From positions 1 to 28,724 of the IMG/VR virus record IMGVR_UViG_3300029624_000238: a DNA stretch of 28,724 nucleotides. One strand, given 5' to 3'. The DNA is from a virus. Positions 8,127-28,068 of this stretch are shown here, piece by piece. Under the pieces are notes generated by a model that saw only the letters and a program-made list of their open reading frames with translations, ran no database searches and was not told the origin of the DNA. Both the position numbers and the translations under genes were made by a program. Numbering within the stretch: the first letter of the stretch is position 1; each line of letters begins with the position of its first letter.

Positions 8127-8154
8127 GTTCTTACCTTGAGTGAGAAAGTTTGTT

Positions 8155-8538
8155 GTGAAATATTCGGTTCAGCTCACCAGCACCGCGACCGGCGACGTTG
8201 AGGTGGTCGATGTCGAAGCTTCTTCGGAAGCCGAAGCGATGAAAATGTTCGATACGGCAAAGTTCGAGGTATCCGTCCTTAGGCCTGACGAAGTCGAGCA
8301 ATCGAGCCGCAAACGGGCTGCGCGTATGAGAGAACAAGCGAACGAAGTCCATCAATTGATCCAACGGGGGCTCGTGCTTGAGCTCTATTTCGCGATCATC
8401 TTTTTCGCATTGGTCGTTGGGTGTGGCCTGAGTACTTTCCTGGGGTCGCTGTTGCAGCAAGGAGAGCGAGAACCCAATCACTCGGAACCGAGCGATGCGG
8501 AAAAGATGCTTCGCATCGAGGTGCTCCGCGAACGGTAG
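8155..8538 (+). CDS. Small membrane protein, unknown function
   Basis: I choose the GTG at 8155 (protein MKYSVQLTS...; 127 residues) because AGAAAG lies about 6 bases upstream. An in-frame GTG at 8140 is possible but has no ribosome site. The N-terminal 50 residues look like a small alpha/beta domain (strands KYSVQL and DVEVVDV, then the helix SEAEAMKMF). A charged helix follows, then one strongly hydrophobic membrane segment at about residues 75-97 (LELYFAIIFFALVVGCGLSTFL) and a polar tail. It runs opposite to the phage genes and looks like a host gene. Confidence 0.6.
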   Translation: MKYSVQLTSTATGDVEVVDVEASSEAEAMKMFDTAKFEVSVLRPDEVEQSSRKRAARMREQANEVHQLIQRGLVLELYFAIIFFALVVGCGLSTFLGSLLQQGEREPNHSEPSDAEKMLRIEVLRER

Positions 8539-9251: not shown

Positions 9252-9806
9252 TCATGAAAATGCCCCTTGGTGTTGCCTCAGCCGCTGCTCGATGGCCTGC
9301 ATGACGCGCTGGTAAATCTGCTCGTCCCGCTGCTGCACGATCGCCACCGTTTGGTCGGCGAGTTGGGCGACCAGTGCTTCATCGCGTGAGGCGTCTTCTT
9401 CCAGCGTGAGTTTGAATTCGCGCTGGTCACGAAGCTGCAGCGTCGCGCTGGCTGCCTGTTGGACGCGCTGGGCCAGATCCGCGGGCCGCGTATCGCGCAG
9501 GTTATGGAAGCTGCTCGCCTGTGCCGCGATCGGAAAGCTGGCCAGCGGCTGGATCGCCTGGTTGGGGAACGATGGTGAATCATCTTCTTGCGATCGTTGC
9601 TCGCTTTCGCTTTCTGACGAAGTCGCAGGGAACGCGAGATCCGCTTCTTCCTCGTCACGTTCATTTCGATCGAAGGATGTTTGGGGGCTGCGAAGCATCT
9701 CCGTTACCATCGGCGCCGCTTCATTCGGCGCGTGTGGGAAGGTGTCGGGTGAAAGTTGGGTCAGCGCTTGAAGCGCTTTGAGTCGCTGTGGGTCATCGTG
9801 TTTCAT
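9252..9806 (-). CDS. Helical protein in the tape-measure position
   Basis: A 184-residue protein whose ATG at 9806 overlaps the TGA of the chaperone extension (ATGA), so it is translationally coupled to it. The middle (about 35-85) is acidic and Ser-rich and probably disordered. Residues 105-184 are helical with regular hydrophobic spacing (LAQRVQQAASATLQL, then QIYQRVMQAIEQRLRQ). In siphophages the gene after the tail chaperones is the tape measure, usually 600 residues or more, so this protein is far too short for a normal one. Gene transfer agents such as that of Rhodobacter use tape measures of only a couple of hundred residues. It could be a short tape measure, or an unrelated helical protein beside a lost one. 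Confidence 0.55.
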   Translation of the reverse strand: MKHDDPQRLKALQALTQLSPDTFPHAPNEAAPMVTEMLRSPQTSFDRNERDEEEADLAFPATSSESESEQRSQEDDSPSFPNQAIQPLASFPIAAQASSFHNLRDTRPADLAQRVQQAASATLQLRDQREFKLTLEEDASRDEALVAQLADQTVAIVQQRDEQIYQRVMQAIEQRLRQHQGAFS

Positions 9807-10219
9807 AGTGAGTGTCCTTCCGTAAATCGCCGCCGCGACGGCAGCTGCCGTAGTGGTTCGACCTGCCGAGCCACCTCGTCCAACTGGGCGAAGTTGCGGG
9901 CCAGGAACGGGTCGCGTCTGAGGTGCTCGGGGACGCAGTGGAAGTGCGTGGCCTGGGCGTATCGCCACAGCTGAAAGGTCTTCCGGTTCTTGGGCGAAAG
10001 CCGCAGACGCTGGGCCTGGTCGGGATTTTGTTTAGGGCACGCCGCGCAGGGAGTCGGTACGCCGGCGGGACGTGGCTGGGGGATTTCGCGGCGATGGGGA
10101 CCGACGCGAACCGTCTGCCGCTGGCCGGTCTCCAGGTCGTAGATCCATTTCGCGCACAAGTCGCAGTCAATCGAAGCGGGGCCGGGGTGCAGCAGCAAAA
10201 GCGCTACACCCTCGATCAG
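9803..10219 (-). CDS. Tail assembly chaperone, frameshifted extension (gpT-like)
   Basis: This frame is open from the slippery site at 10219-10225 to the TGA at 9803-9805 and has no ATG or GTG start near its beginning (only TTG at 10198). Reading it by a -1 shift adds 138 residues to the 123 of the upstream frame, making a fusion of 261, as in lambda gpG/gpGT. The extension holds two CxxC pairs (fusion residues 142/145 in CDLC and 181/184 in CAAC) that could bind a metal. It is rich in Arg and Pro. It ends in an ATGA overlap with the next gene. The chaperone role rests on the frameshift signal and the position between tail tube and tape-measure slot. Confidence 0.75.
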   Translation of the reverse strand: MIEGVALLLLHPGPASIDCDLCAKWIYDLETGQRQTVRVGPHRREIPQPRPAGVPTPCAACPKQNPDQAQRLRLSPKNRKTFQLWRYAQATHFHCVPEHLRRDPFLARNFAQLDEVARQVEPLRQLPSRRRFTEGHSL

Positions 10220-10225
10220 TTTTTT
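10185..10225 (-). promoter_or_regulatory. Programmed -1 ribosomal frameshift signal
   Basis: The minus strand reads A AAA AAC in the correct phase (CTA AAA AAC TGA) at 10225-10219, ending right at the zero-frame stop. After a 7-base spacer (10218-10212), GGGTGTAGC (10211-10203) can pair with GCTGCACCC (10193-10185) across a 9-base loop. This makes a 9-bp stem with one G-U pair. The slippery heptamer, spacer length and stem are all canonical. Confidence 0.85.
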
Positions 10226-10587: not shown

Positions 10588-10646
10588 AGGGTTGGTCTTT
10601 GTGTTGGGGTTATGTTGTCTCGGCTTCAACTCAAGCGCTGAAGAAT

Positions 10647-10770
10647 GGGTAGCCCAGTTTGCTTGCAAGCTGGGGAGGCGAAGCCGAATAGAGGTCCGCC
10701 CGTTCGGGTAGCGCTACCGGAAGACCTCCATTCGCTGCGCTCCCCAGGTTGCAAGCAACCTGGGCTACCC
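10647..10770. repeat. Repeat A, copy 2 (full)
   Basis: A full copy in the orientation with GGCGAAGCC in the left arm. It fills most of the 239 bp gap between the tail tube stop and the chaperone start, ending about 60 bases before that ATG. Confidence 0.9.
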
Positions 10771-10826
10771 GGGAAAGAGCAAGTACGAGCCGGGAAATGG
10801 GAAATGCGACCCAGGCACGAACCCGC

Positions 10827-11729
10827 TTACGCTCCATTGGTATTGGTGAAACGGATCATCGGCCGGGCGTTGGCTTCGTCTTCGTATGCTTGCAGGGTGA
10901 CCTCAGGGCGGATCGACTTTTTGCCGCGGATGTCGACCGGGGTCTCCGGTTTCTGCAGCCGGCCGAAGTCGATCGTCAGGCTATCGGTGCCGTTGTCGAA
11001 GGCCAGCTCGGCCCCGCTTACGCCGGTCGCGGCGATCTCGCGCACGTGATCACCAAAGTCGGCATTGTGCAGGGTGGTGAAGGCCAGCGTGATGGTCGGT
11101 TCCCCTTCCGGCAGACTGGTCCGCGTTTGGCTGTTGTGGAAGTGATCCAACTCCAGCTGGTGGTCGATCGTCAGCACCAGGTCGTCGATGGGGATTGCCG
11201 TTTCGTCGAAGGTCCAGCTGGCGTGATGATGCACGTACGGCAGCTTTTCCGAAAGCGTTCCACCGATGGCCGGGAAGGTACCGGCAGCGGCCGATGTGTC
11301 TTTCGTCTTCCCTTCCAGCAGCAGTTCCAACGTCAGCGGTTGTCCTTGCTTGCTGCGGAAGATGGCCTGGGCGACCTTCAAACCGCGGTAGGTCTCGACG
11401 AGCAGGTCCTTGTCGACGGTGGCGACCAGCTCCGGCAGTGTCTCGGCCAGATCGAAGACGTCGGACGCTTCCGCCCCGCCCAATAGGTACGGCAGCAGGA
11501 AGTCGAGGTCATCGGGCCGCGGCAGGAGCATGATATTGCCACTCACCGACGAGGTGCCTGTCTGGGCGAAGTCACCGATCGGGGCCCGCTTTCCGCGGAT
11601 GCCGCCGGGGCGAATGAGGTTCTCGCGGCGGTTGAGCGTGCACGCCTGAAATTCAAACTGCCGCGTCGCCAGGCTGGTCGCGTGCTGCGGTCCCAAGCCC
11701 AGCTGGGTGGCGTATCCCATGGTTACCAT
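10827..11729 (-). CDS. Major tail tube protein
   Basis: A 300-residue protein starting at the ATG at 11729, with AAGGAAA just upstream. A second ATG three codons later is possible. It begins with a strand-rich N-terminus (QFEFQACTLNRRENLI), has a region naming two beta sheets (GNIMLLPRPDDLDFLLPYLLGG; PLTLELLLEGK), and ends with long strands (PTITLAFTTLHN; SLTIDFGRLQKPE; RPEVTLQAY). This is the pattern of siphophage tail tube proteins that stack as hexamers to make the tail lumen. It follows the tail-terminator-like gene by 10 bases and precedes the chaperones, the standard order. Confidence 0.75.
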   Translation of the reverse strand: MVTMGYATQLGLGPQHATSLATRQFEFQACTLNRRENLIRPGGIRGKRAPIGDFAQTGTSSVSGNIMLLPRPDDLDFLLPYLLGGAEASDVFDLAETLPELVATVDKDLLVETYRGLKVAQAIFRSKQGQPLTLELLLEGKTKDTSAAAGTFPAIGGTLSEKLPYVHHHASWTFDETAIPIDDLVLTIDHQLELDHFHNSQTRTSLPEGEPTITLAFTTLHNADFGDHVREIAATGVSGAELAFDNGTDSLTIDFGRLQKPETPVDIRGKKSIRPEVTLQAYEDEANARPMIRFTNTNGA

Positions 11730-12766: not shown

Positions 12767-12800
12767 GGATATGCTTTCTGTTGTCGTTTCCCGCGCCCCT

Positions 12801-12925
12801 GGGTAGCCCAGTTTGCTTGCAAACTGGGGAGCGCAGCGAATGGAGGTCTTCCGGTAACGCTACCCAAACGCGCGGACCTCTATTCGGCTTCGCCTCCCCA
12901 GGTTGCAAGCAACCATGGGCTACCC
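12801..12925. repeat. Repeat A, copy 3 (full)
   Basis: A full copy with the GCGCAGCGAAT arm on the left, the opposite orientation to copy 2. It fills the 209 bp gap between the genes starting at 12766 and ending at 12976. Confidence 0.9.
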
Positions 12926-12975
12926 AGGCGCGGTCGGTTCACGTGGGTGGTTTGTTCTCGCTCGCTTCCAACGTG

Positions 12976-13496: not shown

Positions 13497-13589
13497 TTAG
13501 CCCCGGTAGGGGCGGTAGAAAATAGCCAGGGGCGTGAGCCCCTGGAAAGGGAACGAAAATTGGTGTTAGCCCTGAAAGGGCGACAGAAT
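13497..13589 (+). repeat. Repeat B, copy 1
   Basis: The block reads TTAGCCCCGGTAGGGGC, then GCCAGGGGCGTGAGCCCCTGG, then TAGCCCTGAAAGGGCGACAG. It is three short palindromes in a row with a fixed spacing. The same arrangement occurs at 15168-15239, inverted at 15261-15345, and at 27851-27940. Confidence 0.85.
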
Positions 13590-13620: not shown

Positions 13621-13702
13621 GGAGGTCTTGCGAATTTGGGTGACTCCACCTGAAGACCTCTATTCGCTCCGCTTCCCAGTTTGTAAGCAAACTGGGCTAC
13701 CC
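13621..13702. repeat. Repeat A, copy 4 (degenerate, left end lost)
   Basis: The GAGGTC centre is altered, but the right arm (GAAGACCTC, TATTCGCTCCGC, CCAGTTTGTAAGCAAACTGGGCTACCC) is intact. With repeat B copy 1 it fills the 330 bp gap after the capsid gene. I see no gene there. Confidence 0.75.
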
Positions 13703-13764
13703 GCTGTCGCTCTTATCGGGGTTAGGAATTGCTTGCCGTTCGCCGACTAATTCCCGATCATTGA

Positions 13765-15000: not shown

Positions 15001-15061
15001 GTGTGTTGTCCTGATAAAGTGTTGAGAATGTGTTCGTAAAAGGTGGGTAATGTGATGAAGT

Positions 15062-15160
15062 GGGTAGCCCATGGTTGCTTGCAACCTGGGGAGGCGAAGC
15101 CGAATCGAGGTCCGCGCGTTCGGGTAGCGCTACCGAAAGACCTCTATTCGCCGCGGTTCC
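15062..15160. repeat. Repeat A, copy 5 (right end missing)
   Basis: The left end and centre are intact (GGGTAGCCC..., CGGGTAGCGCTACC), but the copy stops after CTATTCGCCGCGGTTCC. Repeat B copy 2 begins a few bases later, at 15168. Confidence 0.85.
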
Positions 15161-15260: not shown

Positions 15261-15345
15261 CCACCCTTACAGGGCTAAGTTCTTTTCTGACCTCTACCAG
15301 GGGCTTACGCCCCTGGCTATTTTCTATCGCCCTTTCAGGGCTAAG
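15261..15345 (-). repeat. Repeat B, copy 3 (inverted)
   Basis: On the minus strand it reads AGCCCTGAAAGGGCGATAG, AAAATAGCCAGGGGCGTAAG and CCCCTGG, then AGCCCTGTAAGGG. It lies head-to-head with copy 2 in the 460 bp gap between the capsid and decoration genes. I see no gene in that gap. Confidence 0.8.
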
Positions 15346-16292: not shown

Positions 16293-16344
16293 AGTAGGGT
16301 GAGGGTTTCTTGAATGGCGTTTGAGGATGCGTACCGATCCGATT

Positions 16345-16469
16345 GGGTAGCCCGGTTTGCTTGCAAACTGGGGAGCGCAGCGAATGGAGGTCTTCTGTTC
16401 GTGTTACCGAAACGCGGGGACCTCTATTCGGCTTCGCCTCCCCAGGTTGCAAGCAACCATGGGCTACCC
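16345..16469. repeat. Repeat A, copy 6 (full)
   Basis: A full copy in the GCGCAGCGAAT orientation. It is preceded by CCGATCCGATT, as is copy 7. It lies in the gap between the protease stop and the start of the decoration-like gene. Confidence 0.9.
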
Positions 16470-16504
16470 GGTAACGGCCATCCCGGGGGTCGGTGGGCTT
16501 TGCC

Positions 16505-17625: not shown

Positions 17626-17655
17626 CGGGGTGAGGGTTTGCAATCCGATCCGATT

Positions 17656-17780
17656 GGGTAGCCCAGTTTGCTTGCAAACTGGGGAGGCGAAGCCGAATAG
17701 AGGTCCCCGCGTACGGGTAGCGCTACCGAAAGATCTCCATTCGCTGCGCTCCCCAGGTTGCAAGCAACGCTGGGCTACCC
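17656..17780. repeat. Repeat A, copy 7 (full)
   Basis: A full copy in the GGCGAAGCC orientation. It lies in the 226 bp gap between the portal stop and the protease start. Confidence 0.9.
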
Positions 17781-17798
17781 GGTGGATGGGTTGGACCC

Positions 17799-19527: not shown

Positions 19528-19759
19528 ATGGCATCAACTTCGGCGAAATCTATTCTTGAATGGGGACTTAGAATCACTTAGTAGATGACTAGACTTTCGA
19601 TGTTCGGTGTTTTCTTCTCCGCATTGACCAACGAACACGACTTTTTCCCTGTTTTCGGTGGAAGATGCGTCGGACTTGTGCGTTGATAGAGGAGAGAGAC
19701 TCGCTCGGTTGGACGCTGGGCTGGGCATATCTGTGAAGCTTCGACCAGAGGAGAATCCT

Positions 19760-22700
19760 GTGCGTGGATCGACCTTACTCGCGGTTGCTGCGGCCGTGTT
19801 GCTATTTCTTTCGTCGGCCTCGGCGCAAACGACACCACCTGGCGGCGGCACGCGAACCTTCACGCCGGGGGAGCAGCAGCAGTTGAACCAGGCCCAGGAG
19901 CTTTTCGATCGCGGCAGCGAGTTGTCGAAGAAGAAGGAGTCGCAAGGAAAAGCGACTCGCCTGGTGAAACAGTCGCTCGCGATCCGGGAGCGGATACTGG
20001 GGAAAGAGCATGCCCAAACAATGATGACCGCCAACGCGGTTGGGCAATCGTTGACCGCCCAAGGCCAGTATGCCACGGCCCAGCCATACTTCGAACGCGT
20101 GTTGAAGGTCTACAAGCGGTTTCTGGGGGACCACCCGCTGACCGCGACCTTGCATGGCAATCTTGCGTTTGTCTTGGAGGAACAGGAAAAGCTCGACCAG
20201 GCGCAACAAAACTACGAGCAAGCGCTAAGGATTCTGAAGGAGAAACGGGGTAGAGAGCACGTCAGCACGATAAATGTCGTCAATCGGCTGGCCGTCCTGC
20301 ATGCCAGCCAAGGCGAATACGACGCCGCGATCCCGTACCAAGAGTGGGCGGTCGAGGTCTATTCCAAGGCGTTCGGGGAATCGGCGGAAAGCGCGGGGTC
20401 GATGATGATTCTGGGCCGCCTGCACAAGCGGGCCAGAAACTACCCCGAGGCGGTGTCCCAATTCCAAAAGGCCCTCGAGATCCGCAAGAAGATCCTCGGA
20501 GAGAAGGACCCGGCGACCGCACTTTCCCTTCATGAAATTGGTGTGTTGCAATCGATTCAGCAAGACTATCAAGCCGCCAGGCGTTCGCTGGAAGAGGCCG
20601 TGGCAATTCGGAAGGAGGTGCTCGGGGAAGAGGACTTCAGTACGGCGATGTCTCTGAGTGATCTGGGAATCGTTCATTCATCCCTCGGTGACTACGAGGC
20701 GGCTCGAGCTTGTCACGAAGAGGCGCTTGCCATCCGATCGAAACTTTTCCCGCAGGGACATCCGTTTGTGGCCGATTCTCATCGCAACCTGGGTAACGTG
20801 CTAGGAAATCAGGGGGATTACCCCGCCGCGCGTGCTCACTTCGAGCAGGCCCTGGCCATGCAGAAAAAGACGCTCGGCAACGAGCATCCCGTGCTCGTTG
20901 CTACCCTGACGACGTTCGCCACATTATTAGTTCGGCAAGGACACTATGCGACGGCCCGTCCTCTGAACGAACAGGCCCTGGCAATCAGCCAAACGGCGTA
21001 CGGGAAAGAGCATCCGCAGACCGCCTCGGCGCTGAGCGGGTTGGGCAGCACGCTGAGTTATTTAGGGGAAAATAGCGCTGCTCGCCGCTACCACGAACAG
21101 GCCTTGGCGATCCGAAGAAAAGTGCTCGGCGAGAAGCACTCGGACACGGCCGTTTCATTCTACCTGTTAGGGAATTTATATCTCCGGCAAGGGGACTATG
21201 GCCCGGCGTTTGATTACCTGCAAAGGGCCGTGAATATCAGCAAACAGGTCAACGGTGCGCAGCACCCCCAAACCGCAAAATACACCGCCAGTTTGGCGAG
21301 CTTCCTGGGCAACGTCGGCAAGTACCGCGAGGCGTTACCGTTGCATGAAGAGGCCCTTGCCGTCCGGCAGAAGCTGCTTGGTGAAGAGCATCCAACGACG
21401 GTGGATTCGATTCATCGCCTGGGTATCACGCACACGGGATTGGGAAACTATGACACCGCGGCCTCCTATTTGGAACAGGCATTGAAGCTGCGCAGGAAGA
21501 TTTTCGGCGACGAGCATCACGCCGTGGCCGACCTTCTGATTGCGCTGGCAAGATTGTCTCGCCTGCGAGGTGAGTTTTCTACCTCCCAAGCTTATTACGA
21601 AGAGGCGCTCGCCATCCATCGAAAGATATACGGCCCGCAGCACCCCAACACTGTCTTTAACTTGATGAATCTAGCGAGTGTCCACCAAGCGCAAGGCAAC
21701 TGGGAACTTGCCGTCCAGAATGCCGACCAGGCGCGGCGTCAGTCGCTCGAGTCGACAACTCGCGTGTTGCGGTCGCTGGACCCTCGCGCCCAGGCAAAAT
21801 TCCTGAGCACCCAGCAAGTGCAAGTTTATGGAGCATTGTCTCTGGCGTACGCGAATCGCTCTGAACCTCAGGCCGTAGCCGGCGGGGCCGCCTGGCTGAT
21901 CAACAGCAAGGGGCTGGCTAGTGAAGCGTTGGCCCAACGTCAACTGCTCGAGCGGGACTCGGACCATCCGCAAGTGCAATCGAGCGTGGAAGAACTTCAA
22001 GAGGTACGCCGAAAGCTGGCGGCCCAGGTGATGTCGACTCCGCAGCCGGGACAAACGGCAGCTCGCAGCAGCGCGATCTTTGAACTGACCCAGCAAGAAC
22101 AAAAGTTGACGCGGGAGATTGCCCAGATTGTGGGAAGCTCTGTCGAGACCGCAAAGTGGATCGAGTTGGAAGAAGTTCGTGGCAAGATCGACTCAGAGGA
22201 TGTACTGGTGAGCTTTGCCCGCACTGGTCATCGCGATTTCCAGGCCACCGGACAAGACCCGGCCTGGAAGGAGGAACGCTACCTGGCCTGGCTGATTCCG
22301 GCAGCCGACGGAGGAGATGTTCAAGTGCTCGACCTGGGAGTGGCCAGTGAGATCGATGACCAGTTGAAGCATGTTCGCGAATTGGTGAGCAATCCTGGGT
22401 CGAGCGAACAGCTAACTAAAGCGTTTCAGCAGCTAGCCGAGCAAGTCTGGCAACCGATCGCGCGAAAGCTCCCTGAAGGGACGAGTGATCTTATTCTGAG
22501 CCCCGACGGTGCGTTGTGGCTATTGCCGTGGAGTGCCCTGCCGGTGGGTGACGATCGCTTTCTGATTGAAGACTACAGCCTGCGGTATGTGGTCAGCGGT
22601 CGCGAACTAGTTCAGTCCGCTGGTAACATCAGCAATGCCAGGCCGCTGCTGTTTGCTGATCCGACCTTTGATTTGAGTCCCGACCAAACCCGCACCGCGG

Positions 22701-23461
22701 TCGAGGCGATCTTCCGCGGCGAGACGTTCAACTGGGATGCCCGGCGGGGGATGGTCTCGCAGACGGCGTTGGGCAAGGTTAGCCCCCTGCCGAACACGCG
22801 GCTGGAAGCGGCGGCGATCGCCCCGAGTTTGGAAACGATCAGCGAGCAGGAGCCGGTTTCGTACTTGGGCCAGTATGCGTTGGAAACGGTGGTCAAGCGA
22901 ATCAAGCGGCCCCGGATGCTGGTCCTGAGCACGCATGGGTTTTTCCTGCCGGATCAACAGGTCGCGTCCGACCAGGGGGCAGCCAGTTCCGACGATGATT
23001 CGCGTTCTTCCGATCTACTGACGGTCTATGGCCAGCCGATCGAGAACCCCCTGCTCCGCTGCGGGATGCTGTTTGCCGGTTGCAATCAACCGGCGGCCGG
23101 TGCCGACGACGGCGTGCTGACCGGGATGGAGATCGTCGGCATGGATCTCCGCGGGACGGAACTGGTGGTGTTGAGCGCGTGCGAGACCGGCCTGGGGGAT
23201 GTGCGGAATGGCGAAGGGGTGGCCGGCCTGCGTCAGGCGTTTCGGCTCGCCGGCGCCGAAGGCGTTGTCTCCACGCTATGGAGCGTTCCGGACCGCGACT
23301 CGGCAATCATCATGAAGGACTTCTTCACCAATCTGGCCGAGGGGCAAAGCAAAGCGGAAGCCCTGCGAAGTGCTCAGCTCCAACGAATCGAAAGCCGCCG
23401 CGAGCGCTACGGGACGGCCCATCCGTTCTACTGGGCCGCCTGGACAATGACCGGCCGGTAG
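19760..23461 (+). CDS. Secreted TPR-CHAT protein (caspase-like peptidase domain)
   Basis: I choose the GTG at 19760 because GAGGAG lies about 7 bases upstream and it gives a clean signal peptide (VRGSTLLAVAAAVLLFLSSASA, cut before QTT). An earlier ATG at 19658 is in frame but places this leader inside the protein. Of 1233 residues, about 75-690 are some 14 tandem 42-residue TPR units of the kinesin-light-chain type (consensus Y-x-A-A, EQALAIR, LGxEHP). The C-terminal 350 residues are a CHAT domain with His1059 (LSTHGF) and Cys1141 (SACETG), the caspase-like dyad, and the ending HPFYWAAWT. CHAT proteases cut protein targets. The target and partner are unknown, and the signal peptide puts it outside the cytoplasm. 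It is read against the phage genes. Confidence 0.9.
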   Translation: MRGSTLLAVAAAVLLFLSSASAQTTPPGGGTRTFTPGEQQQLNQAQELFDRGSELSKKKESQGKATRLVKQSLAIRERILGKEHAQTMMTANAVGQSLTAQGQYATAQPYFERVLKVYKRFLGDHPLTATLHGNLAFVLEEQEKLDQAQQNYEQALRILKEKRGREHVSTINVVNRLAVLHASQGEYDAAIPYQEWAVEVYSKAFGESAESAGSMMILGRLHKRARNYPEAVSQFQKALEIRKKILGEKDPATALSLHEIGVLQSIQQDYQAARRSLEEAVAIRKEVLGEEDFSTAMSLSDLGIVHSSLGDYEAARACHEEALAIRSKLFPQGHPFVADSHRNLGNVLGNQGDYPAARAHFEQALAMQKKTLGNEHPVLVATLTTFATLLVRQGHYATARPLNEQALAISQTAYGKEHPQTASALSGLGSTLSYLGENSAARRYHEQALAIRRKVLGEKHSDTAVSFYLLGNLYLRQGDYGPAFDYLQRAVNISKQVNGAQHPQTAKYTASLASFLGNVGKYREALPLHEEALAVRQKLLGEEHPTTVDSIHRLGITHTGLGNYDTAASYLEQALKLRRKIFGDEHHAVADLLIALARLSRLRGEFSTSQAYYEEALAIHRKIYGPQHPNTVFNLMNLASVHQAQGNWELAVQNADQARRQSLESTTRVLRSLDPRAQAKFLSTQQVQVYGALSLAYANRSEPQAVAGGAAWLINSKGLASEALAQRQLLERDSDHPQVQSSVEELQEVRRKLAAQVMSTPQPGQTAARSSAIFELTQQEQKLTREIAQIVGSSVETAKWIELEEVRGKIDSEDVLVSFARTGHRDFQATGQDPAWKEERYLAWLIPAADGGDVQVLDLGVASEIDDQLKHVRELVSNPGSSEQLTKAFQQLAEQVWQPIARKLPEGTSDLILSPDGALWLLPWSALPVGDDRFLIEDYSLRYVVSGRELVQSAGNISNARPLLFADPTFDLSPDQTRTAVEAIFRGETFNWDARRGMVSQTALGKVSPLPNTRLEAAAIAPSLETISEQEPVSYLGQYALETVVKRIKRPRMLVLSTHGFFLPDQQVASDQGAASSDDDSRSSDLLTVYGQPIENPLLRCGMLFAGCNQPAAGADDGVLTGMEIVGMDLRGTELVVLSACETGLGDVRNGEGVAGLRQAFRLAGAEGVVSTLWSVPDRDSAIIMKDFFTNLAEGQSKAEALRSAQLQRIESRRERYGTAHPFYWAAWTMTGR

Positions 23462-23480: not shown

Positions 23481-23605
23481 GGGTATCCCGTGGTTGCTTG
23501 CAACCCGGGGAGGCGAAGCCGAATAGAGGTCCGCGCGTTTGGGTAGCTCTACCTAAAGACCTCTATTCGCTGCGCTCCCCAGTTTGCAAGCAAACTGGGC
23601 TACCC
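23481..23605. repeat. Repeat A, copy 8 (full)
   Basis: A full copy starting GGGTATCCC, in the GGCGAAGCC orientation. It lies between the convergent ends of the CHAT gene and the small HTH gene. Confidence 0.9.
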
Positions 23606-23633
23606 AGTACCCAGTACCCGATGTCCTTCGTCG

Positions 23634-25364: not shown

Positions 25365-25420
25365 TGGGGGTTCCTGGGGGGTGAAATAGGAATGGAAACG
25401 AATCGCAAAAGCAATACACC

Positions 25421-25546
25421 GGGTAGCCCAGTTTGCTTGCAAGCTGGGGAGCGCAGCGAATGGAGGTCTTTAGGTAGAGCTACCCAAACGCGCGGACCTC
25501 TATTCGGCTTCGCCTCCCCCGGGTTGCAAGCAACCACGGGCTACCC
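25421..25546. repeat. Repeat A, copy 9 (full)
   Basis: A full copy in the GCGCAGCGAAT orientation. It ends before the stop of the holin-like gene at 25566 and begins about 57 bases upstream of the ATG at 25364. Confidence 0.9.
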
Positions 25547-26029: not shown

Positions 26030-26154
26030 GGGTAGCCCGTGGTTGCTTGCAAGCTGGGGAGGCGAAGCCGAATCGAGGTCCGCGCGTGCGGGTAGCTCTA
26101 CCCAAAGACCTCGATTCGCTGCGCTCCCCAGCTTGCAAGCAAACTGGGCTACCC
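26030..26154. repeat. Repeat A, copy 10 (full)
   Basis: A full copy in the GGCGAAGCC orientation. It ends five bases before repeat C copy 2. Confidence 0.9.
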
Positions 26155-26158
26155 GGTG

Positions 26159-27022: not shown

Positions 27023-27790
27023 TTACGCGAGTGCGTCTTCGGGTAGCAGCAGGCTGGCCCGCGGGGCGTAGCAGCCGTAGCTGCGGATCGAGCCGCTGAC
27101 GTAGCTCTCGGTGTCGTAGCCGTAGCCGCCGTCTCCCCAGGTTCCCCAGCTGTTGGCATACTTCAGCACGTACTGGCCGTTGCGCTTCATGGGGCGTACG
27201 GCGTAGATCGCGTGCCCTGCCCGGCCGTAGTAGACCGGCTTCCACTGCAGAAGCGCACTGAAGAGTTCGTCGAACGAACCGATCTCGTTCCACTCGGTGA
27301 AACGAAACCGGGCCGCCGTCTCTTCCCAACCATGCGGGAGGCTGCCGCTCCATTGGTTCTCCGGCCAGACGTGCTCGCCGTACGCCTGACGGTTTTCAGG
27401 TGTATCGAGCGGAAGCACGCCCACCTGGCTGATCTGCCGCATGTTGGCATCGAGCGTCGAGCCTCCATGCCGCGAGCCGACGAACTTGAACACACTCAGC
27501 GGCGAAAGGAGGACGCAGTGGCCAGCCCCGACTGCCTTGTTGCGGAGGTACTCCAGACAACTGGTCGACGAATGGGACGCACACGAACCAAGCGTCTGCC
27601 GCTTGATGCGGGCCACGTATCGCTCGGCCAGCGCGTAGTCGTGCTCGGCCAACAGTTGATCCCACTGACTGCGGGGGATGATGTTCTGGTCGTTCTCGAA
27701 CAGCTCGAACGTCGAGCCGAACGTATTGCCCCGGACTAAGGCATCGCCCCGGCCGGGTTGGTTGATGGAGGGGGAGTTGTATGTCGTCAT
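27023..27790 (-). CDS. Papain-like (C1) cysteine peptidase
   Basis: I choose the ATG at 27790 (MTTYNSPSIN; 255 residues), with GAAAG about 10 bases upstream. Codons before it are a frame extension. Catalytic features in order are LGSCASHS with Cys70 (and Gln65 before it), RAGHAIYAV with His193, and ANSWGTWGDGGYGY with Asn213. The order and the NSWG motif are those of papain-family C1 peptidases. No signal peptide or prodomain is seen, so it is probably made in the cytoplasm or carried in the virion. It lies upstream of holin-like and thioredoxin-like genes; a role in release or host takeover is inference. Confidence 0.85.
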   Translation of the reverse strand: MTTYNSPSINQPGRGDALVRGNTFGSTFELFENDQNIIPRSQWDQLLAEHDYALAERYVARIKRQTLGSCASHSSTSCLEYLRNKAVGAGHCVLLSPLSVFKFVGSRHGGSTLDANMRQISQVGVLPLDTPENRQAYGEHVWPENQWSGSLPHGWEETAARFRFTEWNEIGSFDELFSALLQWKPVYYGRAGHAIYAVRPMKRNGQYVLKYANSWGTWGDGGYGYDTESYVSGSIRSYGCYAPRASLLLPEDALA

Positions 27791-27850
27791 ATGGGTTGTC
27801 TTTCGTCGGTACGTATAGCGTTGAACAACAGAGACTGGACGGGTTCGTCT

Positions 27851-27940
27851 CAGCCCCAAAGGGGCGGCAGAAAATAGCCAGGGGCGTAAGCCCCTGGAAG
27901 GGTTGGCAAGGAAATGGTGAGCCCTGAAAGGGCGACAGAA
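27851..27940 (+). repeat. Repeat B, copy 4
   Basis: CAGCCCCAAAGGGGC, GCCAGGGGCGTAAGCCCCTGG, then GAGCCCTGAAAGGGCGACAG. The spacing is the same as in copy 1. Confidence 0.85.
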
Positions 27941-27962: not shown

Positions 27963-28013
27963 GAAGACCTCTATTCGCTGCGCTCCCCAGTTTGCAAGCA
28001 AACTGGGCTACCC
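27963..28013. repeat. Repeat A, copy 11 (right half only)
   Basis: GAAGACCTCTATTCGCTGCGC, then CCCAGTTTGCAAGCAAACTGGGCTACCC. The left half is missing, and repeat B copy 4 lies directly before it. Together they hold the 278 bp gap upstream of the peptidase gene; I see no gene there. Confidence 0.85.
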
Positions 28014-28068
28014 ATGTTTGGTGGTCAAACTCTTGGGTGTGTGCCCGGGGGTGGTGAGCGCCTTGCAT

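Follow-up and report, generated by a model that had tools for sequence, protein, structure and literature searches.

Known tail chaperone systems and the planctomycete locus

The slippery heptamer by which phage lambda produces the tail assembly proteins gpG and gpGT is GGGAAAG, and the frameshift was reportedly described by Levin in 1993 and by Xu, Hendrix and Duda in 2004. It is a programmed -1 frameshift, and in the lambda model G binds the tape measure while T recruits the tube protein (reviewed in PMC5009743). T4-like phages carry one short and one fused chaperone gene (PMC10885494). In the gene transfer agent (GTA) RcGTA the tape measure is about 216 residues long (PMC7296036), and tail chaperones 1 and 2 are listed as two genes, g10 and g10.5 (PMC11409702), unlike the predicted frameshift pair considered here.

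We analysed a viral DNA stretch of 28,724 nucleotides (IMG/VR record IMGVR_UViG_3300029624_000238; “the window”), in which a putative pair of overlapping chaperone frames resembles lambda G/GT in lying between the tail tube and tape measure genes, in a predicted -1 slip near the end of G and in the short and long chaperones that would result. The planctomycete family represented by this locus differs from lambda in using A AAA AAC or G GGA AAC, usually abutting a stop codon, and in a T extension carrying CxxC...CxxC. No sequence relation of the family to lambda G/T was found.

Slippery site and reading frames in the window

The relevant features are all encoded on the minus strand:

10827-11729 (-), tail tube protein (Phage_tube_2, Pfam E 4.9e-14), upstream neighbour of G
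10587-10216 (-), zero-frame ORF G from ATG 10587 to TGA 10216, putative short form of the tail assembly chaperone, 123 aa; 2OB9 is the top match to the predicted fold of the homologous domain
10219-10225 (-), slippery heptamer A AAA AAC, kept in phase among homologues
10216-10218 (-), zero-frame stop TGA, adjoining the heptamer
10203-10211 (-), 5' arm of the stem, GGGTGTAGC, from folding and comparison with homologues
10185-10193 (-), 3' arm of the stem, GCTGCACCC, from folding and comparison with homologues
9803-10219 (-), -1 frame T, extension of 138 aa with CxxC...CxxC, stop at 9803
9252-9806 (-), short tape-measure protein, 184 aa; the profile of the short proteins matches the ends of long tape measures

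The zero-frame codons at the site read CTA AAA AAC TGA, so that a -1 slip would be in phase and join G and T to a product of 261 aa. The two CxxC pairs of T correspond to Cys 142, 145, 181 and 184 of this product, and its predicted junction peptide contains ...DLKNLIEGVALLLL... The original prediction had described a heptamer in exact -1 phase touching the stop codon, a 7-base spacer followed by a 9-bp stem, a second frame open for 138 codons with neither ATG nor GTG near its start, and products of 123 and 261 residues. All of these numbers were reproduced, though a TTG is present in the T frame at 10198.

The sequence AAAAAAC occurs once in the window compared with 2.9 occurrences expected by chance. 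The heptamer alone is thus not rare, and the case depends on its phase, its place and its conservation. As for its place, the gene pair sits between the tail tube and tape measure genes, as is expected of a G/GT frameshift, and the ATG of the tape measure overlaps the stop of T (ATGA). The proposed likeness to the gpG/gpGT arrangement agrees with the order tube, G, T, tape measure and, tentatively, with the predicted fold, whose best match is the HK97 chaperone.

Conservation of the heptamer across homologous loci

Homologues were drawn from viral contigs and from whole genomes belonging to the same family and order as a planctomycete MAG, resulting in 24 distinct loci with the window included; A2 was too divergent to serve a degenerate-pattern scan of the viral contigs. 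One region (G253), which encodes a G-like ORF without heptamer and without T frame, was left out of the 24. A match in L011 (36% over 52 aa) was rejected as a chance match, the true homologue of that genome being located on another contig.

The heptamer is A AAA AAC in 20 loci, G GGA AAC in two and A AGA AAC in one, and the remaining locus is an in-frame fusion with the same junction. The expectation that heptamer and stem are conserved in homologous clusters therefore held for the heptamer, which is canonical (X XXY YYZ) and in -1 phase in 22/24 loci, and held only moderately for the stem, which is strong in about half. The locus with A AGA AAC is the fixed-site cluster G031a (L039, G031:C2), in which the heptamer has degenerated; the other cluster of that genome has A AAA AAC, together with a tape measure of 708 aa.

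Among the loci A AAA AAC and G GGA AAC are swapped as whole units. The residue preceding the heptamer differs (L, E, A, V or R), and the third base preceding it is always A with AAAAAC and always G with GGAAAC. This base fits the heptamer although codons ending in A are rare for four of the five preceding residues in the window cluster (Leu 5.5%, Ala 7.9%, Val 3.0%, Arg 10.2%; Glu 52.8%). The codon following AAC is TGA, TAA, TAG or a sense codon with a stop a few codons later. Hence, the stop codon at the site itself is not conserved among the homologues.

The downstream stem

In the window the heptamer and the stem are separated by the 7-nt spacer TGATCGA, and one of the nine base pairs is G-U. 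A stretch of 66 nt at the site has a folding energy of -25.3 kcal/mol (z -4.1 against dinucleotide shuffles). The stem was further assessed by setting the fold of the downstream 59 nt against recodings synonymous in the -1 frame. The native fold was stronger in many loci, with z from -1.1 to -3.2 in 13/23 unfused loci and a mean of about -1.1 over all 23; z was -1.8 in the window and -3.2 in G294, several loci showed no effect, and the effect was absent in the in-frame fusion (+0.3). The stem is weak in G030, G033, G005, G031b, G041b and L020, and its pairing register shifts between groups of loci.

Covariation was tested in two registers, of which the 9-bp register did not exceed its shuffles and the 12-bp register exceeded them slightly. 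Since it is not convincing in any one register, covariation in the stem is not claimed here. A scan with Rfam detected no frameshift element at the site. The stimulatory stem is thus likely, but less secure than the heptamer.

A natural fusion of G and T and its predicted fold

In one relative (G041a), located on a single contig of 6,496,182 bases, G and T are fused in frame without heptamer or stem. The junction reads GAC CTC ACC AAT CTG ATC in G041a and GAC CTA AAA AAC TGATC in the window. It is one base longer and contains several substitutions, so that it is not a homopolymer error, and the rest of the cluster is collinear with the window. The fusion shows that G-T is a real protein. Like the fused chaperone gene of T4-like phages it encodes the long form without frameshifting; unlike in these phages, no separate short G gene was found in the G041a cluster. 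The fusion shows that at least one lineage can do without producing both chaperone forms. G041 also carries a divergent second copy, which has a heptamer and a tape measure of 678 aa, lies near an integrase-like gene and looks like an ordinary prophage.

The G041a fusion was modelled with AlphaFold2 using an alignment built from G and T of the remaining loci, where the two are separate (mean pLDDT 89.4). The best structural match of the G domain (model residues 1-99) was the HK97 tail assembly chaperone 2OB9 with 90 aligned residues, 4% identity and a Z of 6.1, which is under the level excluding a chance arrangement; the Foldseek E value was 0.7, and only the G part is covered. The three chains ranking after 2OB9 also seem, partly from their titles, to be small phage or phage-like proteins, and several matches in a viral structure library carry the name tape measure or tail assembly chaperone. 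The T domain, searched within the whole fusion, gave no clear fold match. Pfam and PHROGs searches with single proteins and with all 45 members of A3 assigned no confident family, the G ORF having a weak match to Phage_TAC_4 below the cut-off (E 0.012).

Translation of the T frame and alternative explanations

The protein encoded by the T frame is conserved, its four Cys residues (two CxxC pairs) being invariant in A2, and pN/pS ratios of 0.21-0.37 in four pairs indicate that the -1 frame is under purifying selection. A T frame that is under selection and has no start of its own is what a G/GT frameshift entails.

Alternatively, T might be a gene of its own, translated when ribosomes re-initiate beyond the stop of G, for example from TTG 10198. 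In the window this TTG lies seven codons inside the T frame, and a Shine-Dalgarno-like GAGGG precedes it by about 9 nt. In L009/G034, the closest intact homologue, the first 94 T-frame codons include neither ATG nor GTG nor TTG, which argues against a separate start of T and contradicts the one outcome besides a missing heptamer that the original prediction had named as speaking against it; in L020 no start codon occurs in the first 33. Re-initiation would moreover need no heptamer, yet the heptamer is kept in phase, and one relative has both frames fused. Taken together, re-initiation seems very improbable.

We regard it as just as improbable that the fused product arises from transcriptional slippage on the A run instead of ribosomal frameshifting. 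Although this run comprises six A in the window and is longer in several homologues, six A are short for transcriptional slippage, and two homologues use G GGA AAC with homopolymers no longer than three. A single frame change is also a common form of decay in phage-like remnants, but nothing in this analysis supports the view that the site is a mutation or a sequencing error in a prophage undergoing decay. That view is made exceedingly improbable by the recurrence of the arrangement in 22 loci, in bacterial genomes as well as viral contigs, by the purifying selection on both frames and by the occurrence of all three stop codons at the site.

Based on these comparisons gpG and gpGT are very likely made from one start by programmed -1 ribosomal frameshifting at A AAA AAC, with the hairpin as its probable stimulator. 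Most ribosomes would stop at TGA and release gpG of 123 aa, while a minority would slip back by one base on A AAA AAC and synthesise gpGT of 261 aa, presumably helped by the hairpin starting 7 nt downstream. By analogy with lambda, G would coat the tape measure, the T domain would recruit the tail tube protein and the gpG:gpGT ratio would set tail assembly. What was observed is the sequence, the phase, the conservation, the selection on both frames and the predicted fold of the first domain, which is tentatively chaperone-like; the slippage, its efficiency and the roles of both products are inferred. The assignment of the site to lambda-type G/GT frameshifting is well supported by these comparisons; the family would be new to this class, the kind being already known.

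Tape measure and gene order

The ORF following T encodes 184 aa in the window, 169 in G041a, 180 in G034, 185 in G035, 297 in G037 and 186-210 in G031a, G032 and G030. Tape measures of fixed-site clusters thus comprise 169-297 aa versus 678 and 708 aa in the two prophage-like copies, and in phage or prophage relatives the ORF after T has 347 to 708 aa (at least 347 where its end lies outside the available sequence). A profile built from the short proteins aligns with the N- and C-terminal portions of the 708- and 678-aa tape measures, and the G037 protein aligns to both ends of the long ones with the middle absent. In G272 and G294 genes other than the tape measure occupy this place; within 42 bases of T in G272 (L076) we noticed an ORF that by eye resembles a tRNA-dihydrouridine synthase.

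The canonical heptamer was lost in 2/10 vertically inherited clusters (the window being counted there) versus 0/14 others (p about 0.16). A link between heptamer loss and tape-measure length is only suggestive.

Inheritance of the clusters and likeness to gene transfer agents

In two sets of planctomycete species, of five and four, the whole head-tail cluster is found in collinear form at a fixed chromosomal site (relatives L077-L108). The first set (G041, G034, G037, G035, G036) is linked to pyrF. In G041, G034 and G037 the cluster lies next to pyrF and both flanks are collinear over about 10 kb or more; in G035 and G036 pyrF and the cluster are 2-3 kb apart and their relative orientation is reversed, and in G039 the pyrF site is present with both flanks and the cluster is absent. 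A different site, likewise with collinear flanks, is common to G030, G033, G032 and G031a. The window includes no flanking sequence, and its chromosomal location is therefore deduced from similarity.

Between G041 and G034 or G037 the median dS is 0.82 or 0.73 for the cluster and 1.14 or 0.99 for the flanking genes, and the median dN/dS is 0.15-0.20 versus 0.12-0.15, medians being quoted because a few ORFs in the cluster and flank sets are probably miscalled. These values fit clusters that co-diverge with the flanking host genes as a resident, selected element. Vertical inheritance at a fixed chromosomal site and purifying selection on structural genes, both expected of GTAs, are thus apparent in the relatives. 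Neither the window nor the sequence up to about 14 kb around the clusters gave a Phage_integrase match, as is expected of an element without an integration module of its own.

A vertically inherited head-tail cluster with a short tape measure is shared with RcGTA and other GTAs (PMC7296036, PMC9662315), and in their genes the relatives of the cluster resemble a GTA-like element. A search of a limited collection of papers found no description of a planctomycete GTA. It is conceivable, albeit doubtful, that the window is a piece of such an undescribed planctomycete element, in which the tape measure lost its middle, this shortening relaxed the need for a G:GT ratio and the frameshift is being lost while the chaperone is kept. 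A tape measure without its middle region would predict a very short tail, and the loss of the frameshift would be visible as the fusion in G041a and the degenerate heptamer in G031a.

Other features of the window

Further features were observed in the window:

19658-23461 (+), TPR-CHAT protein of 1267 aa (CHAT E 3e-67), flanked by terminase and portal and encoded on the other strand
8140-8538 (+), small ORF adjoining the tape measure, likewise on the other strand, without Pfam match
27023-27859 (-), 278-aa protein without Pfam match
15297-15342 (+), 13499-13545 (-) and 27852-27897 (-), Acido-Lenti-1 RNA (RF01687), three matches above the gathering score
7232-7360, 10641-10775, 12800-12926, 13652-13703, 15061-15151, 16344-16471, 17655-17782, 23494-23606, 25419-25519, 26043-26156 and 27963-28015, strongly palindromic intergenic element of at most 135 bp, present in eleven copies, complete or partial

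The TPR-CHAT gene has a 52% identical counterpart at the same place in G041a, and none was found in G034. The small ORF is conserved at 31-39% in G041a, G034 and G037, in which the 278-aa protein is about 90% identical and thereby among the most conserved of the cluster. No copy of the palindromic element was detected in the related regions examined.

Implications

Most species retain the frameshift, and one has a fusion in its place. The related clusters may serve as a natural experiment, in which one gene occurs with a frameshift or as a fusion, beside tape measures that differ greatly in length, so that one could test whether tape-measure length is what makes the G:GT ratio matter. The lambda G/GT rule would extend to a planctomycete family that Pfam and PHROGs miss and, if the clusters make particles, Planctomycetota would own a gene transfer agent.
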